Source of the DNA: Acidobacteriota bacterium
GTDB taxonomy: Bacteria > Acidobacteriota > Blastocatellia > UBA7656
Direction of reading: 5' to 3'
Assembly (NCBI GenBank): GCA_040754075.1
Contig: JBFMDH010000001.1
Coordinates: forward strand, 62,001 to 126,000
Length of the DNA: 64,000 nt
Both the position numbers and the translations under genes were made by a program. This document shows, piece after piece, positions 2,739-61,783 of the stretch (its first letter is position 1; each line of letters opens with the position of its first letter). A model generated the notes under the pieces. The model was not told the DNA's origin. It ran no database searches and saw only the letters and a program-made list of their open reading frames with translations.

Positions 2739-2777
2739 CTAACACTCCTGTAGGTATGCGTCGATTGTGAGCAGCAA

Positions 2778-4016: not shown

Positions 4017-4067
4017 GTAAGCGTAGTGGTCAATCGAAAGCGGAGTTGGGGAAAACGTAGGACAAAA

Positions 4068-6029: not shown

Positions 6030-6116
6030 GCATTTTCCTTCACCATAATTGCCTTGCGGATTCAAGCCGAGCAGATTGATTTTGTTGAGGCGCGGTCTAT
6101 GCCTCGTTGAGTTTGC

Positions 6117-7211: not shown

Positions 7212-7355
7212 TAACCAATCCTTCGAGTAATTAAGTCTGCGTTGATGATAGAGATGAAGGTGAGTTGAGAAAGGGAACGAGATGAAAAGGTGAACCGGAA
7301 AAAATCCGAGGTTCACCTTTTCATCTCTTCACCACTTCATCTGATTCGCGGTCAA

Positions 7356-34593: not shown

Positions 34594-35799
34594 TTATGCT
34601 CCGAGACGCGATTTGGCTTTATTTAAAAATTGTATGGAGAGGCGCTCCAGTCCATCTTTTTCCAGGAAGCGAGCGCGCACAACCGCCAGACAGTGAAAAT
34701 CTCTATCCAAACAATTCACCTTAACGAATTCAAATTCGTCGGGGACGAAGCGCGCAAGAATGCGCATGCCGGTGGTGCTGACGTCTTCCGTTGAGGTGTC
34801 TTCTTTCATGACCAACTCGAACCCTTCATTGTAATACTCAAGCCGGACGCGCTCCTGACGGTTAAGGCGCGGTGTACGGCGACGTTCAAGTCCAGCCCAA
34901 CTCCTGGGTTTGAAGACCGCCCAGGGGCGTTCGTTAAATCCCGGCGGCGGTTGATTGCCAATGAATTCCAGCGCCACCGTGCGGATGCCTTTTTTCGCAG
35001 GTTCAATGCGACGCACTAAAACATAGAGGCTGAGTTCTGCGCCGGTGTAACCTTGCGGACGAAATTTCTCCAGCACCGGCATAGTAATGTGCAGGATGGT
35101 TCCCGTGCGAATAGGTTTATGCAAAGCGACGCTCAGCCCTGTGCGGCTGACATCGAGGCTTTGCGTCTGTTCGACCCATTTGACTTTGTTTCTTCCATAA
35201 CCGGTCACTTGAACGGTAACCGAAATGGGCGAACGTTGATTGCGACGGCGATTGCTGCCAGCGGTTGAGGGAGCCGCGTCGGAATGCTTGCCTGGCGATA
35301 AAGCCTCTGAACTGCCTGTCCGTTGCGAGTGATTTTTTTGCAGCTTTCCCGAATCGGCGGTGCGAAGCGCAACGTTATGTTCTTCGGTTAAAAGTGAATG
35401 GTCGGTCGATGCCAGGGATGCGCTTGCCGGTTCGGTCAGAGCTTCAGATGGTGATTGAAGAGTAGAGAGTACCGTATCGTATTCAGCGCGTTTTCCGGGT
35501 TCAACCAGAAATGAAAAGGCGAGCGAGACTTTGCGAAAAGCCTTTTCCACTTCAAATATCGAATGATGCGACAGGGCATCGCGCAGGTGGCTTGCGGGAT
35601 AAAGGATATGCAGGATGTTTGTATATGCCCGCACAATGTCTTCATATGAAGCTGCGGGTTCAAGCATCAGCGTTTGATAATGGGTTGACGCCTGTTGAAT
35701 CTGTTCCAAACGGTTGTGTAAGGTGTTCAGATAATTTTCTTCAGGGATGAATTCTGCAACAGGATTTACGTTTTGCGTGCGAGTGGAAAACTCCGACAT
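34594..35799 (-). CDS. J-domain-like protein with two PilZ-type domains
   Basis: This encodes 401 residues. Residues about 40-115 resemble a DnaJ J-domain (TLMLEPAASYEDIVRAY, then KAFRKVSLAFSFL), but the HPD motif needed to stimulate DnaK is absent (HILYPAS). A Ser-rich linker follows. Residues about 182-290 are PilZ-like: RRRNQR, the SLDVSRTGLSV motif. A second PilZ-like unit (about 298-395) begins ERRRTPRL, with DVSTTGMRI. PilZ domains bind cyclic di-GMP via RxxxR and D/NxSxxG. GGAGGT precedes the start. It is paralogous to the next gene on the same strand. No signal peptide, so cytoplasmic. The ligand is inferred. Confidence 0.8.
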   Translation of the reverse strand: MSEFSTRTQNVNPVAEFIPEENYLNTLHNRLEQIQQASTHYQTLMLEPAASYEDIVRAYTNILHILYPASHLRDALSHHSIFEVEKAFRKVSLAFSFLVEPGKRAEYDTVLSTLQSPSEALTEPASASLASTDHSLLTEEHNVALRTADSGKLQKNHSQRTGSSEALSPGKHSDAAPSTAGSNRRRNQRSPISVTVQVTGYGRNKVKWVEQTQSLDVSRTGLSVALHKPIRTGTILHITMPVLEKFRPQGYTGAELSLYVLVRRIEPAKKGIRTVALEFIGNQPPPGFNERPWAVFKPRSWAGLERRRTPRLNRQERVRLEYYNEGFELVMKEDTSTEDVSTTGMRILARFVPDEFEFVKVNCLDRDFHCLAVVRARFLEKDGLERLSIQFLNKAKSRLGA

Positions 35800-35937: not shown

Positions 35938-37275
35938 CTAAATTACCGGGTTGAGAAACTGAACGCACAGGCGTTCCAATCCTTCCTTGCCCACAAACCG
36001 GTTGCGCACCAGCGCCAGGCTCTCAAAGTTGCGGGTCAATGATGTGACCCTGATCAAATCGAATTCAAAGGGCGCATATTTAACGAATATCCGCATTCCC
36101 TGACCGCTGACGTTTTCGGTTACGGTCTCTTCTTTGGCGAGCGAACGAAAATTATCATCGAAATATTCAATGGAGACCTTCTCCATGCGACTCAACCGTT
36201 TTTCTCTACGCCTTTCAGTGCCGTTCCATTGCTGGGTCTTGAAGGTTGTCCAGGGTTTTTCCATATACCCTTTGGGCGGATGTTCACCGATAAATTCCAA
36301 AGCGATAATCCGTTGCCCGTTTTGTATCGGGTCAACCCGACGGACAATCGCATAACTGTTAAAACTGGTTTCGGCAAAGCCATGCATTCGCAGTTTGGTG
36401 GGCAGCGGCAGGGTTAAATAAACCACATTGCCGCAACGCACGCGGCGGCGAACTTTCACACTCACGCCGGTGCGGCTGACATCAACGGTCTGCGTCATTT
36501 CATCCCATTTTTTATTGTGCTGGTCGTACCCGGAAACGCGCGTCGGCAGTGCCATTTTAATGCGCTGATTGCGCCGCCGATTGCCATCTTTCCACTCAGA
36601 GGAATATTCGCTGTATGCCTGTTTGCCCGATGTAGCCGGATTGACCTGAAGGGGGTCGTCGGCAGGGGTTGAATTTATTCTGGGTTTAACCGTGAAAACT
36701 TTTTTCGACGCCTCTCCCGGTGGCGCTGGCAGCGCCGCAGCCGGTGTTGCAGACGCAATCGGTGGTGTCGGCAAAAGGTTTTGCACAGGCGCGTGTGAGG
36801 GTGGCGATAATTTGGGCGCCTTCAACGCCGGCGCAGAATGAACCGGCGAGAGGGGGGGATATTGCACGGCTGTCTGTGCTGCGGGCAAGCTTGAATTGAG
36901 CGGGCTTTTGGCATTCATAATCAAAGCGCGTTGATATTTCTTTCTTTGGTGAGCATTCGCCAGAGTGGAAAATGCTTGCGAAGCTTTCACGAAGGCTTTA
37001 TCCATCTGCTCAAGCGTCGCCTGCGGGATGGAGGTGCGCACGGTTTGCACCGGATAGAAGGTGCTGAGCATTTTATAATAGGCGTGCAGGACATCATCAT
37101 AAGAAGCCGATGGGTCTAAACCTAAAGTTTCAAAATGCGTCGAGGCGCTTTCGACGCGCTCCAACAGGCGGCTCAATTTCAAATGGTATTCGCTCAGTTG
37201 TTCAACGGTATACTCTTTCAAGAGTTCGTTACCAGGCTCTCTGGTCGAAACAGAATTTAACATTTTGTTAGACAC
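35938..37275 (-). CDS. J-domain-like protein with two PilZ-type domains (paralogue)
   Basis: This 445-residue protein has the same order as its neighbour. The degenerate J-like segment is at about 45-120 (ETLGLDPSASYDDVLHAYYK; HPD replaced by FYPVQ), followed by a longer Pro/Ala-rich linker. PilZ-like unit 1 is at about 230 (RRRNQR, TVDVSRTGVSV), and unit 2 (ERRREKRLS, with NVSGQGMRI) follows. Both units keep an Arg cluster and an xVSxxG motif. The GTG start has GGAGAAG 5 bases upstream; the first ATG, 12 bases on, is too far from it. The two genes are a tandem duplication and probably an operon, and may act as paired cyclic-di-GMP sensors. Partner unknown. Confidence 0.8.
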   Translation of the reverse strand: MSNKMLNSVSTREPGNELLKEYTVEQLSEYHLKLSRLLERVESASTHFETLGLDPSASYDDVLHAYYKMLSTFYPVQTVRTSIPQATLEQMDKAFVKASQAFSTLANAHQRKKYQRALIMNAKSPLNSSLPAAQTAVQYPPLSPVHSAPALKAPKLSPPSHAPVQNLLPTPPIASATPAAALPAPPGEASKKVFTVKPRINSTPADDPLQVNPATSGKQAYSEYSSEWKDGNRRRNQRIKMALPTRVSGYDQHNKKWDEMTQTVDVSRTGVSVKVRRRVRCGNVVYLTLPLPTKLRMHGFAETSFNSYAIVRRVDPIQNGQRIIALEFIGEHPPKGYMEKPWTTFKTQQWNGTERRREKRLSRMEKVSIEYFDDNFRSLAKEETVTENVSGQGMRIFVKYAPFEFDLIRVTSLTRNFESLALVRNRFVGKEGLERLCVQFLNPVI

Positions 37276-37403
37276 GTTATCTTCTCCGAAAAATGTTCAC
37301 TGCCGATTTTGCCGACGGAGGTTGCGGCGAGAAGCTAGAAAGACACCCCAATTATCGGGTGAGATGAGAAATTGTCAACAGTTGTCTTTTGCGGTTTAAC
37401 TGG

Positions 37404-37432
37404 TTGTGTAGCGCAAATAATAGCGATAAAAT
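37404..37432 (+). promoter_or_regulatory. candidate promoter upstream of the seven-gene array
   Basis: TTGTGT (37404-37409), a 17-bp spacer and TAAAAT (37427-37432) lie 126 bp before the first gene of the carboxypeptidase-regulatory array. Consensus match only. Confidence 0.35.
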
Positions 37433-37557
37433 TTGCACCCATCGCGGCAGTCGAGCGTTCAAACCCACAAGCCTTTTCCGAAAAAAGGCGACTGAGTTAA
37501 GGTTCACCGAGGTCAGCTAAGAGACCTTGTTCCGAGGTTTCTTAAACGGAGGCAAAA

Positions 37558-39201
37558 ATGAAACCAGCCATATGGATTGCAACCCTGATCGTTGTTTTAT
37601 TGTGTATTGCCCAAAACACCCCTGCCCAATCGAAAGACGCCAAACCGACCGGCTCCATCAGCGGTCAGGTGACAATTGATGGCAAGTCCTTGTCACATTT
37701 CACTGTCGGGTTATTTGCAGGTGTTTTTAGCTCCCGCCAAAATCCATTAATAACAGTGACAACCGATGAAGAAGGACGCTTTCAATTTTCCGGTATCGCG
37801 CGCGGTAATTATCGAATCATTCCACTTACTTCTACCTTCATTGCCGAAAACAACCCCAGACATCCTTGGGAAGCCGGAAAAGATGTCGCCATTAACGACG
37901 GCGAAAGGATTGAAGAGATCAATTTTTCATTAAAGCGTGGCGGCGTAATCACCGGTCGTGTTACGGATGCAAACCAACAACCGATTATTAAAACCTTTGT
38001 CAGCGTTTGGCGATTCGAGGAAAAAAGCAAACAATATCAATCGCCTTTTGTTATCTTCGATTCATCAATCTATGAAACTGATGATCGAGGTATCTATCGG
38101 ATTTACGGATTACCGGCAGGGCAGTATAAAGTTAGCGCGGGTTCTTTGCCCCAGGGCACCGCTGGCATATCCTCGGCTGCCGGTTACATTCGCACGTATC
38201 ATCCCGACGCTACAGATGTCTCAAACGCTAAGGTGATTGAATTGGCTGAGGGGGAAGAGGTATCAGCCGTTGATATAATTGTCGCACTACCCGTGAAAAC
38301 TTATGCACTAACCGGACGCATCATCAACGCCGAAACGGGAAGCCCGGTTGCCGGACAAACCTACGGCATTTTGCCTTTAACCGGGAATGATGCGTCCAAC
38401 AGTTCTCCATACGTGGGTTTGCTCAGCAATGCAAAAGGTGAATTTCGTATAGATAGATTATTGCCCGGTCGTTATGCAATTTTCCTGGTGAATAGCGATA
38501 ACTCCGAATTTTACGCGGAGCGCACCCTGTTTGAAGTGAAAGATGCAGACGTGAAAAACCTTGAAATCAAAGCCTTGCGAGGCGCAAGCATCAGTGGCAC
38601 AGCAGTGGTTGAAGGAACATCTGACCCGAATATTTTAGCGCAACTCCAGAAGCTGCAAGTTGGTTTATCGTTGACGCCGAGACCTTTGGATATACGTTTG
38701 GGAGTGAATCCGATTGCTGTAGACGGCAGTTTTCGCATCAATGGCTTACCTGCCGGTAAAGCCGAAGTTCAGGTGCGCGGCGCTCTGAACGAGAAGGGTT
38801 TCACCCTGATGCGTATCGAACACAATGGGGTTGAGAAGAAAACCATTGAAATTAATAAAGGTGAACAGATAAGCAATGTGCGGTTGGTTTTGGCCTATGG
38901 TACGGGAAACCTTCGTGGACAAATCAAAGTCGAAAATGGCCCATTACCGAAAGAAACCACTTTCCTGGTGCTGGCGGGTCTTAAAGGTGAGGAATCTTTT
39001 AACCCGCGTTGGCAAGCGTGGGCTGATGCGCGCGGCTTCTTCGTCCTTAACGGAATGCCGACGGGTGAATATGAGATAAGAATTGTGCCCCGACAATCTG
39101 ATGTACGAATGCGAACCTTAGAGGAAGTTGTGAGAATCGTGGGCGGCGAGGAAACTCAATATACCTTCACTTTTGACGTATCTAAGCAATTGGTGAAATG
39201 A
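37558..39201 (+). CDS. carboxypeptidase-regulatory-like exported protein 1 (subfamily A)
   Basis: This 547-residue protein has a signal peptide (about 1-24) and about six beta-sandwich repeats of the CarboxypepD_reg type. These are recognised by GSISGQVTID, GGVITGRVTDANQQP, TDDRGIYRIYGLPAGQYKV, NAKGEFRIDRLLPGRYAI and RGASISGTAVVEGT. There is no catalytic peptidase domain. Such folds are binding or structural modules at the cell surface or in TonB-linked proteins. No C-terminal anchor is seen. GGAGG precedes the ATG. It is first of seven adjacent paralogues, and its stop lies about 48 bases before the next start. Confidence 0.85.
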   Translation: MKPAIWIATLIVVLLCIAQNTPAQSKDAKPTGSISGQVTIDGKSLSHFTVGLFAGVFSSRQNPLITVTTDEEGRFQFSGIARGNYRIIPLTSTFIAENNPRHPWEAGKDVAINDGERIEEINFSLKRGGVITGRVTDANQQPIIKTFVSVWRFEEKSKQYQSPFVIFDSSIYETDDRGIYRIYGLPAGQYKVSAGSLPQGTAGISSAAGYIRTYHPDATDVSNAKVIELAEGEEVSAVDIIVALPVKTYALTGRIINAETGSPVAGQTYGILPLTGNDASNSSPYVGLLSNAKGEFRIDRLLPGRYAIFLVNSDNSEFYAERTLFEVKDADVKNLEIKALRGASISGTAVVEGTSDPNILAQLQKLQVGLSLTPRPLDIRLGVNPIAVDGSFRINGLPAGKAEVQVRGALNEKGFTLMRIEHNGVEKKTIEINKGEQISNVRLVLAYGTGNLRGQIKVENGPLPKETTFLVLAGLKGEESFNPRWQAWADARGFFVLNGMPTGEYEIRIVPRQSDVRMRTLEEVVRIVGGEETQYTFTFDVSKQLVK

Positions 39202-39248
39202 AATCCTCTAAAAAATTGCTCCTGCAATTTTGCGATAGGAGATACCAG

Positions 39249-40919
39249 ATGACCATTTTCAAACGAATTTTGCTTATCGAACTATTCTTCATTGTTAGTG
39301 TGGCATTGGCATATTCACAAGTGTCACAACGTGAAACGAAACCTGTCGCAACCGGTTCCATCAGCGGTCAGGTGACAATTGATGGTAAACCGCAGGCAAA
39401 CGTGATGGTGGTTTTGCAACCCGCCAATTCTTCATCCTCACAGGCATTCATCAGAACCCAAACAGATAGTGAAGGGCGTTATCGTTTCTTGAATGTTGCG
39501 GCAGGCTCCTACGCCTTAGGCAACATTACGCCGGGATTCATTTCCAGCGACTCTGTGAACGTGAATCAAGGTAAGCGCCTCATCCTTGATGAAGGCGAAG
39601 CCATTGAAGGGATGGATATTTCATTAAAGCGCGGCGCTACGATTACGGGACGCATCGTGGATGCCAATCAACAGCCGATTATTGAAACAGTGGTCTCCTT
39701 ACTACGAATCAATGAGCGTAGTCGCGCTACTCAATATTACTGGACATATAACAATAACAATCCCTTTGCTCATCACACGGACGACCGGGGCATCTACCGC
39801 ATTTATGGGTTGCCCTCTGGTCGTTACAAAGTAAGCGTCGGACGCGCGGTGAATGATGGTTCTCTCAGATTCGAGCAGGGAGGTAATTATCAAAAGACTT
39901 TTTATCCCAGTGTGACCGACGAATCGCGCGCTCAAATCGTTGAAGTCAAAGCGGGCGAAGAGGTCGCAGGAATTGACATCACCGTGGGCGCAGTTTTGAA
40001 AACCTATTCAGCAACCGGTCGCATCATTGATGTCGCAACCGGCAAACCACTGGCAAATATCGCTTATGGTGTGGGCGGGATGACAGATAGACAGACACTC
40101 AGCGGGGCTGCGTATGGCGGAATTCGCTCGAATGCTCAGGGTGAATTTCAACTGGACGGATTATCGCCCGGTCATTATGCGGTGATGGTCTGGAATGACG
40201 GTACACTCGAAGGGTTTGCCGAACCGGTGCTTATTGAAATCGCCGACCGCAATGTAAGCGGGTTAGAACTGCGCGTGCATCGCGGTGCCAGCATCAGCGG
40301 CGTCGTTGTGGTTGAAGGCACCAACGATCCGGCAATTCTTGGGCTTTTGCAAAGCATCTGGCTGCGAGTATCGGTAACGCCCCCGGCGTTGGATTCATTC
40401 GGTTCCAAAATTCCGACAATTAATGCTGATGGCAGTTTTCGCATCAGCGGACTTCGCGCCGGTAAAGCGCAAATCATTGCTACTTCGATTCAACGGGATT
40501 CAAAGCTCTTTCTTTCGCGCATTGAACAAAACGGCATACCGCAAAAAGAGTTTGACCTCAAAGCTGGCGAACAGATCACCGGTGTGCGGTTGATTTTTGT
40601 TTATGGAAACGGGGTGATTCGCGGACAACTGCAATTTGAAAACGGCGCAATGCCCGAAGGCGCGCGTTATGTGGTTTATGTGAAGCCGCTCAATCCATTG
40701 GTAAAAACCAACTTCATATCGGCTGAGGTGAGTGGGAGTGGAAAATTCATCTTTGAAGCGTTGCCACCGGGCGAGTATGAACTGGAACTGCAAAACGTTT
40801 CACCAAATCAACCCAGACCCTCGCAGTCGATTAAGAAAAATGTGACGGTCACTAACGACGCGGAAACTTCAGTCATCTTCACGCCCGACGCCAAAGTGAA
40901 TGAGGACAGAGAAGAATAA
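39249..40919 (+). CDS. carboxypeptidase-regulatory-like exported protein 2 (subfamily A)
   Basis: This encodes about 556 residues. It has a signal peptide ending LAYSQ and the same repeat order as gene 1 (GSISGQVTIDGKPQANV, GATITGRIVDANQQP, TDDRGIYRIYGLPSGRYKV, RGASISGVVVVEGT). The tail pattern VTVTNDAETSVIF recurs in gene 3. The start is set by TAGGAG at 39237-39242; an in-frame ATG at 39198 overlaps the preceding stop and would hide the signal peptide. Its ligand and binding role are unknown. Closest relatives are the neighbours on both sides. Confidence 0.83.
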   Translation: MTIFKRILLIELFFIVSVALAYSQVSQRETKPVATGSISGQVTIDGKPQANVMVVLQPANSSSSQAFIRTQTDSEGRYRFLNVAAGSYALGNITPGFISSDSVNVNQGKRLILDEGEAIEGMDISLKRGATITGRIVDANQQPIIETVVSLLRINERSRATQYYWTYNNNNPFAHHTDDRGIYRIYGLPSGRYKVSVGRAVNDGSLRFEQGGNYQKTFYPSVTDESRAQIVEVKAGEEVAGIDITVGAVLKTYSATGRIIDVATGKPLANIAYGVGGMTDRQTLSGAAYGGIRSNAQGEFQLDGLSPGHYAVMVWNDGTLEGFAEPVLIEIADRNVSGLELRVHRGASISGVVVVEGTNDPAILGLLQSIWLRVSVTPPALDSFGSKIPTINADGSFRISGLRAGKAQIIATSIQRDSKLFLSRIEQNGIPQKEFDLKAGEQITGVRLIFVYGNGVIRGQLQFENGAMPEGARYVVYVKPLNPLVKTNFISAEVSGSGKFIFEALPPGEYELELQNVSPNQPRPSQSIKKNVTVTNDAETSVIFTPDAKVNEDREE

Positions 40920-40971
40920 CCCCAACCATCATGCGATAGGCGCATCGCGAAACTTATCAACGGAGGTTTCA

Positions 40972-42627
40972 ATGCATTACCTGAATCGAATACTTTCTTC
41001 ATTGCTCATCGCCTTTTCATTAGCAGTATCGACGCACGCTTTACAAAGCGGCACAAAACCCGCAGGCACAGGTTCGCTTGCCGGGCGCGTGCTTATTGAT
41101 GGCAAACCGCAGGCTAATGTCACAGTCGTATTGCAACAGGGGCGCAGGCGCATGACCACGCTGATTCCCGAAATGAAGACGACGACAGACTCGGAAGGGA
41201 ACTTCAAAATTGAAAAGGTTCCGGCAAACGATTATCTGTTGAATGCGCTGACGCCGGGTTTTGTCAATCCCGCTGAATTAGGCAGTATTTTGCCTGAAAA
41301 AGGCAGACCTGTGGTGATTAATGCGGGCGAAGAGTTGACCGGAATTGAAATCGCATTAAAGCGCGGCGCGGTCATTACAGGACGTGTAGTGGACGGGAAC
41401 CATCAACCACTGATTGAGGCCTGGCTTCAATTGTATAAGCTGGATGAAAAAGGCGAAGCTCAATATTTTTACATTAATAATCCGCGAATGTTGCTAACCG
41501 ATGATCGGGGAGAATATCGCCTTTATGGATTGCCTGCCGGTCGTTACAAAATCGGACTTGGCGCCAAACCGGGTATGACAGCCGCGACCAGGTATGGCGT
41601 AAATCTTTATCAGTTGACCTATCACCCTGATACAACCGATGTGATGAAAGCTGAGATTATCGAACTTGGCGATGGCGAAGAAGCGACCAACATTGACATT
41701 AAACTGAGCCACAAGCTGAAAACTTATACTGCAAGCGGACGCATCATTGATGCGGCGACCGGTAAGCCTGTAGCCAATGTGCAATATTTTTGTGGCTTGG
41801 TACGTCCAACCGGTGAGTATGGCGGCATGGTAAGCCCGGCGATGAACCCCACCGGCAGAGGTGAAATGTTTTTTGAAGGCTTAACTCCCGGCAGATATGC
41901 CGCAATGATACTCAATACAAACGATAGTGAAACATATGCTGAGGCTGCGCCATTTGATATTAAGGATGAAGATGTTCAGGGACTTGAATTAAAAATTTAT
42001 CGCGGCGCTAGCATCAGCGGTGCGGTAGTAGTCGAAGGAACGGATGACCCGCAAATTCTCGCGCTCGCGCAACAGGCGCGAATTTGGCAACGAACAAAGA
42101 ATACTGATCCCACGCCGTCAATCTGGCATCCTCGCCCAATTGCCGCTGACGGCAGTTTCAAACTTATCGGTTTACGTCCGGGAAAGATTGAGATTGGCGC
42201 TGACAGCCCGTTTAACAATAAGCGAATCGCTTATGTGCGAACCGAGCATAATGGCGTTGAGGTGAAAGAGTTTGATGTCAAAGCCGGCGAACAAATCACC
42301 GGCATTCGCATCGTGATGGTTTATGCGACGGGCGTGATTCGCGGCACCGTGAAAGTTGAAAACGGCAGCCTGGCTGAAAACGCGCGACTCTGGGCAATGA
42401 TTCGTCGCGCCGGAGAAACGAAAACTCGTTCAATGACAGAAGTGGATGCGCGCGGGCGGTTTGTCATCGAAGGTTTGGTTGCGGGTGAATACGAAATCCT
42501 GCTGTATGGCGATAACGGCAATAAACCGCTTCCACGGGGAATCAAACAAACCGTCACCGTGACCAACGACGCGGAAACGCCGGTCACGTTGGTCATCAAC
42601 CTTGAAGCCAAAAATCAGGATAAATAG
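40972..42627 (+). CDS. carboxypeptidase-regulatory-like exported protein 3 (subfamily A)
   Basis: This encodes about 551 residues. The signal peptide (LLIAFSLAVSTHALQ) is followed by GSLAGRVLIDGKPQANVTVVLQQ, GAVITGRVVDGNHQP, TDDRGEYRLYGLPAGRYKI and RGASISGAVVVEGT. It ends EAKNQDK, close to the end of gene 6 (KAKNQDN). GGAGG directly before ATG 40972 decides the start; an upstream in-frame ATG at 40900 lies inside gene 2. It is the third member of the array. No enzyme motif. Confidence 0.83.
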   Translation: MHYLNRILSSLLIAFSLAVSTHALQSGTKPAGTGSLAGRVLIDGKPQANVTVVLQQGRRRMTTLIPEMKTTTDSEGNFKIEKVPANDYLLNALTPGFVNPAELGSILPEKGRPVVINAGEELTGIEIALKRGAVITGRVVDGNHQPLIEAWLQLYKLDEKGEAQYFYINNPRMLLTDDRGEYRLYGLPAGRYKIGLGAKPGMTAATRYGVNLYQLTYHPDTTDVMKAEIIELGDGEEATNIDIKLSHKLKTYTASGRIIDAATGKPVANVQYFCGLVRPTGEYGGMVSPAMNPTGRGEMFFEGLTPGRYAAMILNTNDSETYAEAAPFDIKDEDVQGLELKIYRGASISGAVVVEGTDDPQILALAQQARIWQRTKNTDPTPSIWHPRPIAADGSFKLIGLRPGKIEIGADSPFNNKRIAYVRTEHNGVEVKEFDVKAGEQITGIRIVMVYATGVIRGTVKVENGSLAENARLWAMIRRAGETKTRSMTEVDARGRFVIEGLVAGEYEILLYGDNGNKPLPRGIKQTVTVTNDAETPVTLVINLEAKNQDK

Positions 42628-42705
42628 ATTTGTGAATGGAAATTTATTCGCACACATTAACAAGAAAAAACGTCTGGTGAATTTATCAACCTTGAAGGAG
42701 AGACG

Positions 42706-44529
42706 ATGAAAAAAATTATTGCACCCGGGCTTTTGAGTATTTTGTTGGTTATTGCGGCTTTCGCTCAACAACCTTCTGCAAATCCATCGACGACTACCCA
42801 GGTCAAAAAAGCTGCCGCAGAGCAACGCCAGTCGCAAGCCCGGCGCGGTTCAATCTCCGGGCGCGTAGTCAGTGACAGCGGACAACCGCTCGCGCACATT
42901 GCGGTGACAGTTTCGGCAATGGGAAACCGCGCGCAAATGAATCAACGCAATCTCGGCACCGACGAAGAGGGCAGATTTCAAGCCGATGATTTATCGGCAG
43001 CAACCTATCAGGTTTCGCCTTTCGCGCCGGGTTATATCCTTGCCAATCAGAGAAACGAAGTGACAGTTTATCGCCTCGGCGACAGCGTGACCTTTACGAT
43101 GACCAAGGGCGGCGTGATAACCGGCATGGTCAAGAGTGCAACGGGCGAACCGGTCATCAATGTTTCAGTGCGCGCCATCCGCGTCAAAGATGCCGAAGGC
43201 AAAGCGATTCGTTCTGCCAATATCAGAGTTGAACGCCTGACCGATGACCGGGGCATCTATCGTTTGTACGGACTGGAATCGGGAACTTATATCGTTATGG
43301 CGGGCGGCAACGGTTTTTATAGCGGCGGTTATGACAAATATTCCGAAGACATTCCCACTTATCATCCGTCATCGACCCGCGACACCGCGAATGAAATTCT
43401 GGTGACCAGGGGGCAGGAAGTATCGAGCATCGACATTGCCTATCGCGGCGAAAAAGGCAAGGTCATCAGCGGCAGCGTTGCCAATCATCCCAATCTCGCT
43501 CCCAATTATGCCATCGGAGTGATGCTGATAAACGCCATCACCGGCGTTCAGGAAGCCACCGCCTCTGCCAGTACGCGCTCGGACAGTAGTCGCAGTTTCA
43601 GCTTTTTCGGTATAAGCGACGGCGAATATCTCGTCAAAGCCATGTATGTTCCATTCAATGATGAAAAGAATACGATGGCATCAGCGGCAAAACGCATCGT
43701 AGTTAAAGGCGGCGATGTGACCGGTGTTGAACTGGCGCTTGCGCCGCTCGCTTCGATTTCAGGTCGCATCATTTTTGAACCGCTTACAGATGAAGCGGCA
43801 AAGAAAAAATGTGAGCCTGCCAAAGACACATCTCTGGAAGAGGCGCTGATTTTTATTCGTCGCGATGACCAAGCCGAAACGCCGCAACTGCCATTTAATC
43901 CACCTTCGCAATTTTCCGGCGATGAAAAGGGGGAATTCACGCTCTATCGGTTTGAAGCCGGACGCTATCGTTTGTCGGCGAATTTACCGAGCGATACCTG
44001 GTATGTAAAATCCATCGGTTTCCCTAAGACTGCGAAACCCAACCAACCCGCTTCGCGAAATGCTCAACTAAGCGATGTTGCAACCAGAGGCTTGAATCTG
44101 AAAGCCGGTGAGCGCATCAGCGATTTGACCATCACCATCAACGAAGGCGCGGCAAGCCTGAGCGGTAAAGTGAGTGCTCCCTCAGAGCGCGACGCGCTGC
44201 CAGCGAACCTGCGGGTCTATCTGGTGCCTGCGGAACGCGAACGCGCAAACGACGCACTGCGTTTCGTTCAAGCTCAGGTGCAAAGCGACGGAAAATTTTC
44301 TTTGACAAACCTTGCGCCCGGCAAATACTGGATAGTCACGCGCATTGCGAGCGATGATGAGTTGACGGATAACGCGCCGCGTCCGCTGTATTGGGACATA
44401 GACGGGCGCAATCAGTTGCGCAAAGAAGCCGAAGCCGCAAATATCGTAGTTGAATTGCAAACGTGCCAGCGCCTTGCGGATTATGGGTTGCGCTATACGC
44501 CGCCCAAACCGGCAACGAAAAAGCTGTAA
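42706..44529 (+). CDS. carboxypeptidase-regulatory-like exported protein 4 (subfamily B)
   Basis: This 607-residue protein has a signal peptide ending AAFAQ and a basic linker. The repeats begin GSISGRVVSDSGQPLAHI, GGVITGMVKSATGEPV and TDDRGIYRLYGLESGTYIV. A segment GGNGFYSGGYDKYSEDIPTY is shared with gene 7. The C-terminus carries LTNLAPGKYWIV and VVELQTCQRLADYGL, again as in gene 7 and unlike genes 1-3, 5 and 6. AAGGAGA precedes the start. It defines the second subfamily of the array and is separated from gene 3 by 78 bp. Confidence 0.83.
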   Translation: MKKIIAPGLLSILLVIAAFAQQPSANPSTTTQVKKAAAEQRQSQARRGSISGRVVSDSGQPLAHIAVTVSAMGNRAQMNQRNLGTDEEGRFQADDLSAATYQVSPFAPGYILANQRNEVTVYRLGDSVTFTMTKGGVITGMVKSATGEPVINVSVRAIRVKDAEGKAIRSANIRVERLTDDRGIYRLYGLESGTYIVMAGGNGFYSGGYDKYSEDIPTYHPSSTRDTANEILVTRGQEVSSIDIAYRGEKGKVISGSVANHPNLAPNYAIGVMLINAITGVQEATASASTRSDSSRSFSFFGISDGEYLVKAMYVPFNDEKNTMASAAKRIVVKGGDVTGVELALAPLASISGRIIFEPLTDEAAKKKCEPAKDTSLEEALIFIRRDDQAETPQLPFNPPSQFSGDEKGEFTLYRFEAGRYRLSANLPSDTWYVKSIGFPKTAKPNQPASRNAQLSDVATRGLNLKAGERISDLTITINEGAASLSGKVSAPSERDALPANLRVYLVPAERERANDALRFVQAQVQSDGKFSLTNLAPGKYWIVTRIASDDELTDNAPRPLYWDIDGRNQLRKEAEAANIVVELQTCQRLADYGLRYTPPKPATKKL

Positions 44530-44618
44530 AAAATCAAAAATTGATTTCAATGAATGAAACATTAGCGGTTTAATTTAATGAGCGAGAGAATGGTGGTTGA
44601 ATTCATGTTGGAGGATTT

Positions 44619-46517
44619 ATGCCGATGGTAAAACGTATTTTTCTGGTCATCTCTTTGAGCCTCGTGACGATGCTTGCTCAGCCTCGACAAACGCTTTCGC
44701 AAGACAGCGGCACAGGCGTGATTGCCGGACGTGTAACCGTCAACGGGGTTCCGGCGCGTGGCGTTCAGGTGATGGCGTTTTATGAAGGCGATGGTAAACA
44801 AGACGAACAACTGTTCGGCAAGATGATGTCGCAAATTTTATTTGGCAATGGCGGCGATTTCGTTTTCAAATCGGTAACCGATACCAACGGGCAATTTCGC
44901 TTTTCGGGAATGAAGTCCGGCAAGTATGAAGTTCGCGTCTTTGCCCCTGCGATGATTGGCACTAAAACCACGAATCCGCCGCCTCCGGCAAAAGGTGATG
45001 ATGAGAAAAAAATTGCCAATGCTAAAAAAAATGACGAAGACGAAGACGAAGATGATGACGAGGAAAGCCCCGAAGCCATCGCCGCTAAATTTAAAACCGA
45101 AACCAACGACAGCGCGCGAAAGGAATTGAAACTCGGCGAAGGTGAAACCGTTGATAATCTCGAATTTTCCATCACGCGCGGCGGCGTCATTACCGGCAGA
45201 GTGACATTTATGGATGGTCGTCCGGTGATTGGTGAAGTCGTGCGTCTGGTGTCGCAAAAAGAATTTGATGGCAAAAATGAGTACGCGCTTTCATTCGGCG
45301 CAGAGATGTTTGGCGAACAATTCATGACCGATGACCGGGGCGTCTATCGCATTTTCGGGGTGCCGGATGGTCGCTACAAAATCGCTGTGGCGTTTAATGG
45401 TGGCGGTTCGATTTTTACCGAACGCTTTGCCGAAAGACGCAACCGCCACCAGACGACCTACTATCCGGGCACCACAGATGAAGCGACCAGCGGCATCGTT
45501 GAAGTTCGTGGCAGCGGCGAAGTTCCCAACATCGATATTAAAATCGGCGCACCGGCAAAAGCTTATATGGTTGCCGGACGGGTGATTGATGCGGAAACCG
45601 GCAAAGCGATTCCGGGCATAGTCATTCGCTGCACTGCAATCAATGCCGAAGCCCGTTCGCAAGGCAAAAGCGCGCCGACAAATGCGCGCGGGCAATTCAC
45701 CATTGAAGGGCTGACGAGCGGCGACTATTCGGCGATGATTGCAGCGGAATTAATGGAAGACCGCGAATTTTATGGCGATGCGACAAGGTTTGCAGTTAAA
45801 GACGCAAACTTCACCAATCTGGAAATCAAACTCTATAGAGGATTGACGGTGAGCGGCACAGTGGTCGTTGAGGGCGCAGGCAGCGCCAACGTCACTGTCG
45901 GGCTTGCCGGACAATACGTTTCCGCGACCAGTTGGGAAGACCGGCAGGGCGAACGCCAGGAAGGGATGCTCTATACCCATGCCAGTTCCGACATTAAGGC
46001 GGACGGCAGTTTCATCTTAAAAGGATTAAGACCCGGCAAAGCGCGCATCGGTGTGATCAAGTTGTCGGAAGGTTCAGGCGGATATGCGCTGAAACGGGTC
46101 GAGCGTAGCGGCGTAGACATTACCGCCGGATTTGATTTGAGGCGCGGCGATGTGATTAACGATGTGCGCATCGTTGTCGCTATGGCAAACTGCACCATCA
46201 ACGGTAAAGTCCATTTTCAAGGCGGCACGCCACCCGCAGGAACTTATATCTATGCCGTTGTTCGCAAGCCCGGCGCAAAGGATGGTGAAGACGATGATGA
46301 CGGATTTGATGCCCGCAGCAGCAATACGATGGTCAACAAAGATGGCACTTTTAAGCTGGAAGGCTTAACGCCAGGGCAATACGAATTGGTGGTCATCGCG
46401 ACAATGGGTGGCGATGAAAAAGAGGGCGATTTAAAACGGCGCGAGAGCAAACAGCTCATCAACCTCGTCGAAGGCCAAACCCTCGATGTTGAATTGTCTC
46501 TGGATGTGAGCAATTGA
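44619..46517 (+). CDS. carboxypeptidase-regulatory-like exported protein 5 with acidic insert (subfamily A)
   Basis: This encodes 632 residues. A signal peptide (LVTMLAQPRQTLS) precedes GVIAGRVTVNGVPARGVQV. After the first repeat an acidic low-complexity insert rich in Asp/Glu (KKNDEDEDEDDDEESP, about residues 135-150) is unique to this member. The remaining repeats are as in subfamily A: GGVITGRVTFMDGRPVIGEV, TDDRGVYRIFGVPDGRYKI, RGLTVSGTVVVEGA. GGAGG precedes the ATG. It lies 89 bp after gene 4. The acidic stretch could bind a cation, but that is only a guess. Confidence 0.83.
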   Translation: MPMVKRIFLVISLSLVTMLAQPRQTLSQDSGTGVIAGRVTVNGVPARGVQVMAFYEGDGKQDEQLFGKMMSQILFGNGGDFVFKSVTDTNGQFRFSGMKSGKYEVRVFAPAMIGTKTTNPPPPAKGDDEKKIANAKKNDEDEDEDDDEESPEAIAAKFKTETNDSARKELKLGEGETVDNLEFSITRGGVITGRVTFMDGRPVIGEVVRLVSQKEFDGKNEYALSFGAEMFGEQFMTDDRGVYRIFGVPDGRYKIAVAFNGGGSIFTERFAERRNRHQTTYYPGTTDEATSGIVEVRGSGEVPNIDIKIGAPAKAYMVAGRVIDAETGKAIPGIVIRCTAINAEARSQGKSAPTNARGQFTIEGLTSGDYSAMIAAELMEDREFYGDATRFAVKDANFTNLEIKLYRGLTVSGTVVVEGAGSANVTVGLAGQYVSATSWEDRQGERQEGMLYTHASSDIKADGSFILKGLRPGKARIGVIKLSEGSGGYALKRVERSGVDITAGFDLRRGDVINDVRIVVAMANCTINGKVHFQGGTPPAGTYIYAVVRKPGAKDGEDDDDGFDARSSNTMVNKDGTFKLEGLTPGQYELVVIATMGGDEKEGDLKRRESKQLINLVEGQTLDVELSLDVSN

Positions 46518-46576
46518 GTCGAAAACAAAGCGAAGCTATCTGTTAATCACCAACAACCATTCGGACATAGATAAAT

Positions 46577-48286
46577 ATGAATCATCTGAAACATTTTCCT
46601 CTTCTGGTTGCTGTGATGTTTTGTGCAGCGTCCTATGTATTTTCGCAAACTTTGTCAGAACATCCTCCCACCCACAAAGGTGTGATATCCGGTCGTGTAA
46701 CAATCGATGGCAAACCCGCTCAAGGCATTATTGTCGTTGCGCTACCTGACGATTCCGATATTCGGGCATTTCGCCAGTTCGTCGCTAAAGGAGTTCCTTT
46801 TCCTAAAGTGAGTACGAATGATGACGGAACCTTTCGGTTTAACGGAATTGAAGCGGGGCGTTACAAACTGTCTGTGCATGCGCCGACCATGCTTTACGTT
46901 GTAGGGCAGGACAATGAATCGATTGACAAGACTTTTACGGTTGGCAAAGACGACGTGATTGAAAATATTAATTTTGCTTTGATTCGCGGAGGGGTGATTA
47001 CCGGGCGGGTGATTGATGCAGATGGGAAACCGGTTATCGGAGAAGTTGTTAATGCCATTCGTCAAAGAGGTTCAGATAAAGAGCCATATCAAAGAAGAGT
47101 CACTGGGGGAATTGAAAGTTTCCTGACTGATGACCGAGGTATCTATCGTATTTATGGTCTGGCAAATGGACGCTATAAAATTGCTGTTGGTGGCGACAGC
47201 ACATTTCCTGGACAATCCGTTCAAAGAGGCAAGCGCGCAAGGCAAACCTACTATCCCGGAGTGGCTGACGCTTCAGCAGCCAAAGAGGTAGAAATTACCG
47301 ATGCCAATGAGGTTCAGGGAGTGGATATTAAAGTTGAAGCTGTTCCATCCACTTACGCGATTAGCGGGCGAGTGATTGATGCCGAAACCGGCAAACCCGT
47401 CCCGCATGCGGTCGTGAAGTATTCATCGTTTGGTACTTCATTTAACCCGTTAAGTATTTCAGCGAATGCTCAAGGTGAATTTAAAATTCAGGGCGTAAGA
47501 AACAACAACTATATGCTTGAAGCTGTAAACCCAAGCGATGAAGCCAAAGATTATTATTCCGAAAAAGCGGAATTTAATCTCAAAGACGCAAACGTCGAAA
47601 ATATCGAGATTCGTTTGCATCAAGCCGTAACCATTAGTGGGCAGGCATTCATTGATGGCTCAAGTGATCCGATGTATATGGAAAAGCTTTCGCAGGCAAC
47701 CATATCCGCAGTTTCGCGTGATGAAGGAAGTGGTAGCTTACTAAAAAATTCCACCGATTCGGTAGCGAGAATCGGTGCGGATGGCAACTTTATTTTTCGT
47801 GGGTTAATGCCGGGTAGTGCCTATATTCGCCCAATGGTTTATTCAGGGTTACCCGGATTCTGGATTACTAAAGTAGAACGCACAGGCGCGAATAAAGAAC
47901 TAAAGCTAAGCAGGGGAGAAGCAATCAACGATGTGCGCTTGTATGTAGCCCCAAGAACCTGCAAGATACGCGGACAGGTGAAAATCATTGGCGGAACATT
48001 GCCTGCGGGTACATCTCTGGACGTTTCATTTTACCGGCTGATCAATGGAGAATCGGATTACCCCTATAACGCGAAAAACAATACCAGTGTTGAAGTTGAC
48101 GCAAACGGTCGCTTCATCATCGAGTATTTGATTGCGGGGGATTACGAATTGGGGGTGAGTACACAAACCGCCAATCCCTCAGAGAAAGCCAAATACAGCG
48201 CACCACAAAATGTGAGTTTAAGCATCGGGCAAGAATTGGAAATGGAAATCGTTTGGGATTTAAAAGCTAAAAATCAAGACAACTAA
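46577..48286 (+). CDS. carboxypeptidase-regulatory-like exported protein 6 (subfamily A)
   Basis: This encodes 569 residues. The signal peptide ends SYVFSQ, followed by GVISGRVTIDGKPAQGIIVV, GGVITGRVIDADGKPVIGEV, TDDRGIYRIYGLANGRYKIAV and, near residue 350, a diverged repeat (ITISGQAFIDGS-like in place of SISGxVVVEG). It ends KAKNQDN. The ribosome-binding site is weak. Most similar in its second repeat to gene 5. No enzyme motif; exported, probably surface or periplasmic. Confidence 0.83.
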   Translation: MNHLKHFPLLVAVMFCAASYVFSQTLSEHPPTHKGVISGRVTIDGKPAQGIIVVALPDDSDIRAFRQFVAKGVPFPKVSTNDDGTFRFNGIEAGRYKLSVHAPTMLYVVGQDNESIDKTFTVGKDDVIENINFALIRGGVITGRVIDADGKPVIGEVVNAIRQRGSDKEPYQRRVTGGIESFLTDDRGIYRIYGLANGRYKIAVGGDSTFPGQSVQRGKRARQTYYPGVADASAAKEVEITDANEVQGVDIKVEAVPSTYAISGRVIDAETGKPVPHAVVKYSSFGTSFNPLSISANAQGEFKIQGVRNNNYMLEAVNPSDEAKDYYSEKAEFNLKDANVENIEIRLHQAVTISGQAFIDGSSDPMYMEKLSQATISAVSRDEGSGSLLKNSTDSVARIGADGNFIFRGLMPGSAYIRPMVYSGLPGFWITKVERTGANKELKLSRGEAINDVRLYVAPRTCKIRGQVKIIGGTLPAGTSLDVSFYRLINGESDYPYNAKNNTSVEVDANGRFIIEYLIAGDYELGVSTQTANPSEKAKYSAPQNVSLSIGQELEMEIVWDLKAKNQDN

Positions 48287-48322
48287 TTTAAAGTTTTAAA
48301 TTTGAATCATAAAGGAGCGACC

Positions 48323-50326
48323 ATGAAACGCTGGATGATTGTCATCATTATTTTTTCTACAATCCTGATTGCCAACGCGCAACGACCGCGCAAAACGCCA
48401 ACTAAACCGGCTGCTGAAAAAGCCGCGCCGAAAAATGTTGTCGGGCGCGCGCTCACCGGACGGGTGATTGATGAGAGCGGCAGACCCGTCGATGATGCGA
48501 TGGTGCTGGCGGCTCCGGCAGGGGTGATGAGCCAGCAAAAACGACCTGTTAATGCCGGCATGCGCACCGCAACCACCGGCGAAGACGGACGTTTCGCGTT
48601 TGACGAACTCAATACCGGTTCTTACGCCCTTAAAGTTTATGCGCCGGGCTATGTCGTCGCGCCGGGAGTTACGCAAGAAAATGGTAAACCGAAATATTTT
48701 CACATCGGCGATGAGGCGACGCTCCGGTTAATCAAAGGCGGGGTGATTACCGGAATGGTGACGACGCTTTACGGAGAACCGCTGATTGGCGTTCAGGTTC
48801 GCGCCATGAAAATTAAAGAGGTGGATGGTCGCGCCAGCCGTAGCGCACCCGTAGATGAAATGACGATTGGCAGAAGCTGGAAGACTGATGACCGTGGCGT
48901 CTATCGTATCTACGGGTTGGAACCGGGCATTTATGTTGTGGCGGCGGGCGGTAAAGGCGTATTGAGTTTTTCACTTGGCGCTTATGATGCGGATTCGCCG
49001 ACTTACTATCCGACGGGCACACGCGACACCGCGACGCCGATTACGTTGCAAAGTGGGCAGGAAATCGGCGGCATCAACATTCAATATCGCGACAATCGCG
49101 GGCACCTCGTCAGCGGCACGCTTTCGGGATTTGATAATCAGGGCGTGGCTTTTGTGACGCTGACCAATGCCGCGACCGGCACCATCGAAGCGATGTCACT
49201 TGGCGGGGCGATTTTCGGAATCGGCGATGGGGAAAAGCCTTCGTTTGCTTTGGGCAGCGTGTCGGATGGCGACTATTATGTGAGCGCCATGGGCGGCGAT
49301 GAACGCAAACTGAATCTCGCAACCGATGAAACGCTGGTTGCGCCGCCGCGTAAAGTCACGGTGCGCGGCGCGGATGTGACCGGCGTTGAACTGACGCTGA
49401 TGCGGCTCGGTTCGATTTCCGGCAAATTCGTTTTAGAGAATTTGAAATCGGTTGATGGTAAAAGCATCTGTCCGGCGAAACGCGCATCTTCGGTTGAAGA
49501 AGTGGTCTTGCTCAGTCAACTGGACGTAAAAGGCAAAGACCGCCCGGAACCGACGATGCCGATTGCGGCGCTGTTTGCGATGTTTACGACCGATGGCGTG
49601 CCCAATGAAAAAGGCGATTTTCGATTATTGATTATTGATGGCGGACGTTATCATCTCGACATCAAATTGCCCACGGAAGATTGGTTCATTCGCTCAATTA
49701 CAATGCCTGCAAATTCAGCCAGCCGCGAATCTAAAGAACCAATGGCTCAACCAACGTCAGGGGGGATTTCAACGAAGGAGCCGACAAACGCCCAAGCAAA
49801 ACAGCCGTCGAATAATCCATCGAAAGAGTCCACAGGCAATCAACCAAAGACCGAATTAACCCAGTTCAAAGATGCGGCGCGCGAGGGCATGATGATGAAA
49901 TTAGGCGAAAGGCTCGAAGGCGTCACCATCACTGCATCCGAAGGCGCAGCCGGACTCAAAGGGCGAGTCACGGTTGCAAAAGAAGGCGAGCAATTGCCTA
50001 ATCGCCTGCGCGTGGTGTTGGTTCCGGCAGAACCGGAAAGCGCCGATGATGCGCTGCGTTATTACGAAACCGAGATGCAACGCGACGCGACATTTTCTTT
50101 AAATAATCTCGCGCCGGGAAAATATTTCGTCATCGCTCAAGCGGTTTCCGAAGAAGAGATGAACGACGACACCTTGCGCCCCTTGCGGTGGGATGCTGAG
50201 TCTCGTAAAACTTTGCGCAAAGTTGCCGAAGCGTTAAACGTCACCCTTGATTTTCAACCCTGCCAGCGCGTCGGAGATTATCTGCTAAAAGCTTATCAGG
50301 GGCGAAATTCTGAAAATAAAAGGTAG
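48323..50326 (+). CDS. carboxypeptidase-regulatory-like exported protein 7 with Ser/Asn/Lys-rich insert (subfamily B)
   Basis: This encodes about 667 residues, the longest of the array. The signal peptide ends TILIANAQ. Repeats are as in gene 4 (LTGRVIDESGRPVDDAM, GGVITGMVTTLYGEPLIGV, TDDRGVYRIYGLEPGIYVV). The C-terminus LNNLAPGKYFVI and LDFQPCQRVGDYLL matches that of gene 4. An insert near residue 475 is low-complexity (EPTNAQAKQPSNNPSKEST). The AAAGGAG site before ATG 48323 is preferred to an upstream TTG at 48302. It ends the array; a 22-bp inverted repeat follows. Confidence 0.83.
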   Translation: MKRWMIVIIIFSTILIANAQRPRKTPTKPAAEKAAPKNVVGRALTGRVIDESGRPVDDAMVLAAPAGVMSQQKRPVNAGMRTATTGEDGRFAFDELNTGSYALKVYAPGYVVAPGVTQENGKPKYFHIGDEATLRLIKGGVITGMVTTLYGEPLIGVQVRAMKIKEVDGRASRSAPVDEMTIGRSWKTDDRGVYRIYGLEPGIYVVAAGGKGVLSFSLGAYDADSPTYYPTGTRDTATPITLQSGQEIGGINIQYRDNRGHLVSGTLSGFDNQGVAFVTLTNAATGTIEAMSLGGAIFGIGDGEKPSFALGSVSDGDYYVSAMGGDERKLNLATDETLVAPPRKVTVRGADVTGVELTLMRLGSISGKFVLENLKSVDGKSICPAKRASSVEEVVLLSQLDVKGKDRPEPTMPIAALFAMFTTDGVPNEKGDFRLLIIDGGRYHLDIKLPTEDWFIRSITMPANSASRESKEPMAQPTSGGISTKEPTNAQAKQPSNNPSKESTGNQPKTELTQFKDAAREGMMMKLGERLEGVTITASEGAAGLKGRVTVAKEGEQLPNRLRVVLVPAEPESADDALRYYETEMQRDATFSLNNLAPGKYFVIAQAVSEEEMNDDTLRPLRWDAESRKTLRKVAEALNVTLDFQPCQRVGDYLLKAYQGRNSENKR

Positions 50327-51630: not shown

Positions 51631-51783
51631 ATAACAGTCCTCACTTTTCCAAAATTACTGATACGCTGTCGCTGTATGCAAATTGGTTGGGGAGGCGCGG
51701 GGGCTACCAACCGGGCTATTGCCCCCATTTTTTTAATGGTCTACTTAAAACGGGTGTTGACACAGAAAATTTCTGGTTCCGGG

Positions 51784-52614: not shown

Positions 52615-52678
52615 GAGGGTCTCCTTTGCAAATTCGCATTTAAAGTAATGATGGGTATGCAGCTTGCGCCCGTGGTAA

Positions 52679-56347: not shown

Positions 56348-56426
56348 TTACACTTCCTCAAACTCAAAGTGATAGCTCAAGCCTTTTCATCCGGTTATGG
56401 TTTCGGTTAATAAAATATTACAAATG

Positions 56427-57261: not shown

Positions 57262-59649
57262 TTATACTTTAGCTCCCAGTGGTTCCTGAACGATGTTTTC
57301 TTCTATCAGCGCCGGTTCACTGGCTAACCTTGGGCGCTTGATGAACACCAGCGCCAGCAGATAAATCAATGCGCCAACAATCAACGCTTGATTGAAGCCC
57401 GTCAAAATCGCAATCACCAGCGCCGCTACCGAACCCATCACCGAGGTTGCGCCATTGACGCCCCATGCCCAGGGAATGATTTCCGGCGAATGTTTCGCAA
57501 GCAAACGTATGCCAATCGGCATCGGCATTCCCATCACCAGTGCGAGCGGCGCCATCAACGCAATTGCAATAATGATACGCGCCGGATGCGGCAACCATAC
57601 CAAGCCGTAAAAAATCGGCGGCAACACCAGAATATAAATGACTACCAGCGCCACCAACGCCAGAATCACTTTCATCAAAATCGCTTGCAAATTCGCCTGC
57701 GCGAATCGTCCGGTTATAAAACTCCCCAGGGCGCTGAAGGTCAAAAGCGAAAACAGAATCACCGCCAGCGAATAGACCGGATGCCCTAAAAACAGAATGA
57801 ATTTTTGAATCATCGCCACTTCAACAATGATGAACCCCGCGCCCAGACCGGCGAAATAAAAGAGAAATGCCAGTCGCCCGTTCGCCTGACCGCCGGTTGC
57901 GCGTTTTCTCACCAGGATCAGCGGCACCAGTATAAATAACACCACCAACACCGTAGTGATGCCAAACAAGACGAATAATACGAAGGTGCCGAGGTTGGTT
58001 TTCTGCCATTCACCGACGCCAGTCAAGGCGCGACCGAGATTTGACGGGCGCAGCGAATTGAAGAAAAACGGGTTGTTGTCATGAGTCGGATGCACATTGG
58101 TTTCAAAAGCGTTCCAAACCGTCGCCGGGTCTGCGGCTTTCATCATCTGCGTAAACACATTGTCAGGCTGGGTGAGCGGCGTATAAAGCAGTTGAAACTG
58201 CCGCTCTGCCGCAAGCTTTTCGATGACGCGCACTTCATCATCAGTGAATTCGCTCTTTTTAAAAAGAAAGGTTGCCGGGGTGCGATCATAATTGGTGCTG
58301 ACATCGCGCACCAGCATCACATGGCGTTCGGGATTTTGAATGTTTAAATCCTGCATCATCACGCGCGTCAGCGACAGCAATCTGAGCAACTGGTCGGGCG
58401 GTTCAAAATACCAGCGTGTCATGGTGAACACTCCGTCTTCGGTCAAGTGATTGGCGTAATCTTTGAAGGCTTCGACGGTGTAAAGATTGTTTTCCGTGAG
58501 CGAAAATGCGCCTGCTGCGGTAGCCGCCCAGGTATCGACCATCGTCGCCTGCAACACATCATAACGGTCTGACGAACGGCGAATGAACGAACGCCCTTCG
58601 TCAACTTCAAGCTGCACTTTCGGTTGTTGATAGATGCCACCGTTATAAGTTTTAAAGGGTTCCGAAGACATCACATCGCGCGCAATAATCGGATTGATTT
58701 CCACGGCAGTAATGTGACGGGCATCAAATACCAAAGCCGTCGCCACATCGAATCCGCCACCTGGCCCGATGATTGCCACATTGGCATTGGCATTTTTCAA
58801 ATGATAAGCCAGTGAATGAATGCCGTTTCGTTCATTCTGATGACGGTCAGTATTGCCGCCGTCGTAAACAATGCCGGTTGCCGCGTCGGCATCGATTTTG
58901 ATTTCGATATGCTCATTCATATCGCCTTCAACCGTAATGCGCGAAAACGAATTCCATTTGGAGAATAAGACCTTGGTTTCTTCAAATCCTTTGGATTTGC
59001 GTATGTCAATCGCTTTGGTCGAGGTGTTGTAAATGACAAGTCCGGCAAGCGTCACTGCCAGCAAAATCGACAGCCCGAAGGCGAGGCGATGCCCTGCGGT
59101 TGACCGGCTGAAAAGCGTGGCGCTCACTGCGCCAAGCGCCGCAACGCCGAGCACTGTGTTGATTGCGCCGATGGCATTGAGCACCGGGATGAGCAACAAA
59201 CAACCAAGCGCCGCGCCCGCCAGATCGAACAAATACAAACGCGAAATGTCTTCCGCAAGTCGCATGATTGCCAGCGTCACCGCACAACCGGCAAAGAAAA
59301 ACGGCAGCGAGGTAGCTCCATAAATGCGCGCCAGGCGATAATAATTTTCCGAGCCGGTTTCAAAGGTCAGCGCATTTTCAAAAATGATATAGAGCGCAAA
59401 CAGCACACTTAATGCAAAAAGCATCGACGAAACGCTCAACCAGAAGCCGGTCTTTTCTTTACTCAGTTTATTTTGAATGATGTAGATGAACACGCCGCTT
59501 GCGCCCGACCCGAAAAGCGCAAGAGAGATCGCCATAAATGCGAAATGATAAAACATGGTCGCCGAAAACAAGCGGGTCAGCGACAATTCCAAAACCAGGA
59601 CGGAAAGCGTGAGCAAAAAAATACCAATGAAAATTTTCGTGCGATTCAT
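57262..59649 (-). CDS. polytopic membrane protein with spermidine-synthase-like domain
   Basis: This encodes about 795 residues. N-terminal helices (about 1-215), then a soluble domain (about 245-500) with the SAM/aminopropyl-binding loop NVAIIGPGGGFDVATALVF and AVEINPIIARDV, then further helices to about residue 770. This is the layout of a spermidine-synthase-like domain inserted in a transporter-like membrane scaffold. Whether it makes polyamines or methylates something is not decidable. The start at 59649 has GGAG 7 bases upstream. It is flanked by the sigma-factor cluster and a toxin-antitoxin pair, without obvious link. Confidence 0.85.
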   Translation of the reverse strand: MNRTKIFIGIFLLTLSVLVLELSLTRLFSATMFYHFAFMAISLALFGSGASGVFIYIIQNKLSKEKTGFWLSVSSMLFALSVLFALYIIFENALTFETGSENYYRLARIYGATSLPFFFAGCAVTLAIMRLAEDISRLYLFDLAGAALGCLLLIPVLNAIGAINTVLGVAALGAVSATLFSRSTAGHRLAFGLSILLAVTLAGLVIYNTSTKAIDIRKSKGFEETKVLFSKWNSFSRITVEGDMNEHIEIKIDADAATGIVYDGGNTDRHQNERNGIHSLAYHLKNANANVAIIGPGGGFDVATALVFDARHITAVEINPIIARDVMSSEPFKTYNGGIYQQPKVQLEVDEGRSFIRRSSDRYDVLQATMVDTWAATAAGAFSLTENNLYTVEAFKDYANHLTEDGVFTMTRWYFEPPDQLLRLLSLTRVMMQDLNIQNPERHVMLVRDVSTNYDRTPATFLFKKSEFTDDEVRVIEKLAAERQFQLLYTPLTQPDNVFTQMMKAADPATVWNAFETNVHPTHDNNPFFFNSLRPSNLGRALTGVGEWQKTNLGTFVLFVLFGITTVLVVLFILVPLILVRKRATGGQANGRLAFLFYFAGLGAGFIIVEVAMIQKFILFLGHPVYSLAVILFSLLTFSALGSFITGRFAQANLQAILMKVILALVALVVIYILVLPPIFYGLVWLPHPARIIIAIALMAPLALVMGMPMPIGIRLLAKHSPEIIPWAWGVNGATSVMGSVAALVIAILTGFNQALIVGALIYLLALVFIKRPRLASEPALIEENIVQEPLGAKV

Positions 59650-59715
59650 CAAGAGGCTCCATTAAATAAAAATAAAAACGGATTGAAAAAAAAGGCAAAA
59701 CAGGCGAATTCGTAA

Positions 59716-61635: not shown

Positions 61636-61783
61636 AATGAAGCAGTAAATGTACTCGAAGCGCAGCCCCTCAGCCAACTCTCACATAAATATTTTCGCCA
61701 CCTTAGGAATAAAAATTTGAAGCCTCCGATTTGATTGATTTGAAGCATTAGCAATTAAATCAAAATTCAAAAGGAGATTTTAA

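Follow-up and report, generated by a model that had tools for sequence, protein, structure and literature searches.

What evolutionary unit gives rise to a run of seven adjacent genes of a single protein family, and what might its products do? This question is raised by positions 37558-50326 of the window (the whole 64,000-nucleotide stretch of an Acidobacteriota contig analyzed here), where a sequence-only reading had described seven same-strand genes for exported beta-sandwich proteins of two subfamilies in the order A-A-A-B-A-A-B, and had explained that order by repeated block duplication followed by divergence. The inventory itself was borne out: all seven ORFs lie on the + strand at these coordinates, the scores of the two subfamily profiles are hundreds of bits apart, and profiles and trees alike place genes 1, 2, 3, 5 and 6 in subfamily A and genes 4 and 7 in subfamily B. 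Gene 1 (37558..39201, 547 aa) has a strong ribosome-binding site (GGAGG), and ribosome-binding sites were also used to revise the starts of gene 2 (39198..40919, probable start 39249), gene 3 (40900..42627, probable start 40972) and gene 7 (48302..50326, probable start 48323); the remaining members are gene 4 (42706..44529, 607 aa), gene 5 (44619..46517) and gene 6 (46577..48286). In a scan for promoters and terminators, promoter-like matches were no commoner than in shuffled sequence.

All seven proteins contain the carboxypeptidase-regulatory-like repeats ascribed to them, matching PF13620 (CarboxypepD_reg) with E-values of 1e-20 to 1e-32 (73-112 bits versus a cut-off of 32.3) and with 2-5 copies per protein passing individually, and none of the seven is recognized by an NCBIfam model at its cut-off. 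The signature noted earlier is present in 7/7 proteins in the form TDDRGxYRx(Y/F)G(L/V)xxGxY, within which T-D-D-R-G, Y, R, G, G and Y are invariant. It represents the domain-2 form of a general TTR-like motif (T-D-x-x-G-x-[FY]...G-x-Y), domain 2 being the best conserved in both subfamilies (mean pairwise identity 0.41 in A and 0.48 in B). The N-termini, as read from the sequences, are signal-like (charged, hydrophobic, then ...AxAQ), and both A and B are predicted to be exported by a Sec-type signal. The AlphaFold2 models obtained from alignments of 67 A and 57 B proteins agree with the beta-sandwich fold, comprising five such domains in A (as in the model of gene 6; mean pLDDT 85.0, pTM 0.78) and five domains followed by a C-terminal helix and strand in B (as in gene 4; mean pLDDT 88.6, pTM 0.84). 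Two cysteines, Cys369 and Cys587 in gene 4 numbering, are kept in 98% and 93% of B proteins, respectively, and probably form a disulfide. Among the seven proteins, only the product of gene 5 has an acidic insert (DEDEDDDEE), located between domains 1 and 2.

Beyond the window, matches in 39 relatives fall as adjacent pairs. As assessed with the A and B profiles, 80 of 92 distinct A genes (79 clear, one partial) are directly followed by a B gene, exactly half of these direct junctions (40/80) showing an exact 4-bp overlap, and an A gene is found directly upstream of 78 of the 86 B genes examined. The same arrangement is seen in the window at genes 3→4 and 6→7. Tandem pairs such as AB-AB-AB-AB and AB-AB-AB are found in three genomes (G015, G031 and G019); by locus, four pairs in a row occur at L049/L095, three at L045 and L050, and two at L051/L104, L080 and L093, while the A-A-B order recurs at L109 and L127. 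The exceptions include lone A genes (L058, L084 and L134) and a reversed order, B then A, in a single genome (G005, loci L055 and L063). One of the lone A genes (L058, on contig C16) is the only further relative found in the window's own genome. The families flanking the pair vary, being mostly housekeeping or locus-specific, and the A-B pair thus appears self-contained; among the flanks no third conserved operon partner was identified, except a divergent DnaJ-PilZ gene in one family. Judged from gene order and sequence comparison, the unit is an ancient two-gene A→B pair (or operon).

The A proteins all fall into one clade and the B proteins into a second (SH-aLRT 100 each), both of them confined, in the genomes sampled, to the class Blastocatellia. 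Among the relatives with names are Pyrinomonadaceae, Chloracidobacterium UBA bins and further bins of Blastocatellia. With E below 1e-100, full-length B matches were detected in 50 of the 162 genomes of this class, representing 25 of its 53 genera, and a sample of 297 genomes of the phylum yielded weaker, mostly partial matches outside the class. These weaker relatives (group C), unnamed exported five-domain proteins of ∼580 residues from other Acidobacteriota classes, have the length and the motif of A and B and often occur in tandem, but they form a clade apart from both, and some have independent pairs of their own. Three genomes of another class (L150, L152 and L153) have in common a separate conserved pair of group C proteins. 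A bin of another Acidobacteriota lineage (L148, positions 1-8321) contains an alternating X-Y-X-Y array in which X and Y each form their own clade. On this comparative evidence, pairing appears to have arisen on more than one occasion in Acidobacteriota.

The distance matrices of A and of B, compared for 74 pairs, correlate with r = 0.83, versus at most 0.28 upon random pairing. When partners were shuffled within genomes (thus keeping species history), the mean was 0.66 and the maximum 0.813, with 0 of 5000 shuffles reaching the observed value. Since the observed correlation is above all within-genome shuffles, we conclude that the pairs duplicate and descend as units. The end-branch lengths of A and B correlate as well, a result that we leave out of the argument since common split times would suffice to cause it, and the faster evolution of the lone A genes is a mixed hint.

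The explanation that we prefer, and to which we would give an even chance of being correct, is that A and B form an exported heteromeric complex, the pair being duplicated and diverging as a unit. As the overlap and gene order suggest, A and B would be co-expressed from a single mRNA, their translation often being coupled, and the A:B complex would assemble in the outer envelope or extracellularly, where we infer a binding or adhesive role. Duplication and divergence of the pair would provide several A:B sets with different binding surfaces, and the extra A copies in the window's genome may offer one B alternative partners. The fixed pairing and order with their frequent overlap argue for such a complex, as do the tandem AB arrays with A and B trees that match pair by pair, the independent paired arrays of L148 and of L150/L152/L153, the self-contained character of the pair among otherwise variable flanks, and the existence of A and B each as one clade. 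The confident models of both subunits, the conserved cysteines of B and the correspondence of genes 5-7 to one A-B pair of a sister genus (see below) are consistent with it. On the other hand, co-duplication is expected from physical linkage, so that matching A and B trees alone do not demonstrate binding; the lone A genes, the B-then-A order in G005 and the ratio of five A to two B genes in the window itself likewise speak against such a complex.

The same argument from linkage underlies an alternative in which A and B, encoded in one operon with linkage and translational coupling, are distinct exported binding proteins that form no physical complex. Linkage would account for their co-duplication, lone A genes exist and persist, and in the models A and B each fold confidently alone. 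We nevertheless consider this alternative rather doubtful in view of the fixed order of A before B, the class-wide rarity of B without A, and the apparently independent origin of pairing in other lineages.

The earlier suggestion that the array could build a surface layer or a set of binding modules is, by analogy, a possible one. Its more specific form, with A and B as structural units of a surface layer or a pilus-like fiber, appears improbable, even if the domain folds resemble those of CnaB pilins, MSCRAMM adhesins and SlaB of the two-component Sulfolobus S-layer, and four genomes of the family have a gene for a PilZ (c-di-GMP) protein in divergent orientation to the operon. These structural matches are limited to single domains, and the PilZ gene family occurs away from A-B too. 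The seven sequences show no evident sortase motif, lipobox or C-terminal anchor; read directly, their C-termini have neither an LPXTG-type signal nor a hydrophobic anchor. Isopeptide bonds would need a Lys-Asn/Asp set per domain, but no lysine is conserved across the domains of A or B: the only lysines conserved at the level of at least 70% are K346 in A (0.70) and K134 (0.79) and K466 (0.77) in B, and a single conserved Asn was found (N535 in B, 0.74). In addition, the divergence of the paralogues (25-41% identity to gene 1) is unusual for a lattice protein.

How the seven genes came to lie side by side was addressed by trees, topology tests and synteny. In the A tree (91 proteins), genes 1-3 form one clade, and genes 5 and 6 group with L077, L076 and L040, gene 5 being placed in the orthologous group of the L077 A gene. 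In the B tree (78 proteins), gene 7 falls among the B genes of these three loci, nearest to its L077 orthologue. In the sister genus (L077/L043) a single A-B pair occupies the same locus, to which genes 5-7 are orthologous; at L077 it is flanked on the left by a DnaJ-PilZ gene 44% identical to that of the window, and on the right by genes for a spermine-synthase-domain protein (57262..59652 on the − strand of the window, 75% identical) and a glycosyltransferase (60451..61677, − strand, 81% identical). The AU tests rejected the five A genes as one clade (p = 0.0007), genes 3 and 6 as sisters (p = 0.00013) and genes 4 and 7 as sisters (p = 1.3e-5), and did not reject genes 5 and 6 as sisters (p = 0.26). 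The trees, these tests and the single L077 pair at the shared locus together lead to the conclusion that, as far as phylogeny and synteny can tell, the array is composed of two old pair lineages side by side, lineage I (genes 1-4, A3B) and lineage II (genes 5-7, A2B). Genes 1-3 and genes 5-6 are supported by the sequence comparisons as separate, later A-only expansions within the two lineages. Another locus (L041) has an A-B pair that is also located beside a DnaJ-PilZ gene and falls near lineage I in the trees, albeit with support that is not firm. Of the originally proposed scenario, duplication thus stands, all seven genes being related by it, and the copying of an AAB block does not. That one gene, or an AAB block, was recently amplified in tandem at this locus, as the adjacency of same-strand genes of one family, the single pair in the sister genus and the clustering of genes 1-3 might suggest, is highly improbable given these AU rejections and the low identity between paralogues, which points to an old family.

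The DnaJ-PilZ-PilZ gene at the left border of the array (35938..37275, − strand) is divergent from gene 1, from which 282 bp (37276-37557) separate it, and is adjoined by a second paralogue (34594..35799, − strand). Its synteny with A-B is kept in four genomes of the family, and other copies of the DnaJ-PilZ gene lie apart from A-B. In the encoded proteins, every PilZ domain is preceded by RxxxR and contains D/NxSxxG, both of them motifs for c-di-GMP. This domain combination is unusual, and the window's genome contains four copies of it. Based on location and motifs, the divergent gene is a possible c-di-GMP regulatory link to A-B. To the right of the array, a set of four genes on the − strand (50578-57008) is missing from the orthologous L077 locus. 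Its products are a protein with sigma-70 region 4, a TPR-CHAT (caspase-like) protein of 1222 aa with an N-terminus resembling an anti-sigma-type leader, a 276-aa protein with no Pfam match, and a protein of 350 aa that has trypsin-like motifs (SNWH, GDCA and GDSGS) and no Pfam or PDB sequence match; the set could encode two proteases that work as a pair and are controlled by a sigma factor of their own. PF13620 itself is represented in the window's genome (G000) by 114 matches, over forty of them in ORFs of about 1000-1300 aa, which are probably Oar-like TonB-dependent receptors.

The fold and the PF13620 domain are common. The paired, class-wide and co-duplicating arrangement of A and B is named in no family library used in this study, and no paper describing it was found, which, with incomplete coverage of the literature, is weak evidence of absence. 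More tentatively, A and B might together make up an undescribed extracellular system of two different subunits, class-wide in Blastocatellia, in which cognate pairs were multiplied for different specificities (surfaces, polymers or kin), with the same design invented in parallel elsewhere in Acidobacteriota; taken as a whole, we regard this extended proposal as less probable than its negation. Acidobacteriota are abundant in soils, and to our knowledge little has been established about their cell envelope. A compact two-gene module that is conserved in a class and copied as a unit would offer a testable entry point to this envelope, raising the questions of whether A and B bind each other, where they are located and what the diverged pairs recognize.

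The comparison with known systems places A and B among proteins built of transthyretin-like (prealbumin) domains. Single domains of both models match the TTR domains of carboxypeptidases D and N, CnaB pilins, UafA, SdrD, teneurin and SlaB (Z about 8-12), although such domain-level matches carry no function by themselves. Every A and B domain has the PF13620 fold, and the CPD/CPN domains superimpose on the models with Z of 9.4-10.4 (rmsd 1.6-2.3 over 73-82 residues); unlike other PF13620 proteins, A and B contain no catalytic or receptor domain, have five copies in a row and show a near-fixed pairing. The best match by sequence profile among solved structures is NOMO of the eukaryotic BOS complex (E 2.1e-31 for A and 3.7e-21 for B). 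NOMO is likewise a chain of prealbumin-like domains, but it is a much longer ER membrane protein, whereas A and B have no membrane anchor and no paired partner of its kind. Gram-positive CnaB pilins and MSCRAMM adhesins (SpaA/SpaD, BcpA, UafA and SdrD) have the same beta-sandwich fold in series; A and B, which belong to diderm bacteria, differ from them in lacking a conserved isopeptide lysine pattern and a sortase signal. Finally, SlaB (8qox_B) resembles single A and B domains (Z 9.5-9.6), the match spanning only 150-165 residues with an rmsd of about 15. The SlaA/SlaB S-layer of Sulfolobus is a two-protein surface system, as the A-B pair may be, and has a membrane stalk, which is absent from A and B.
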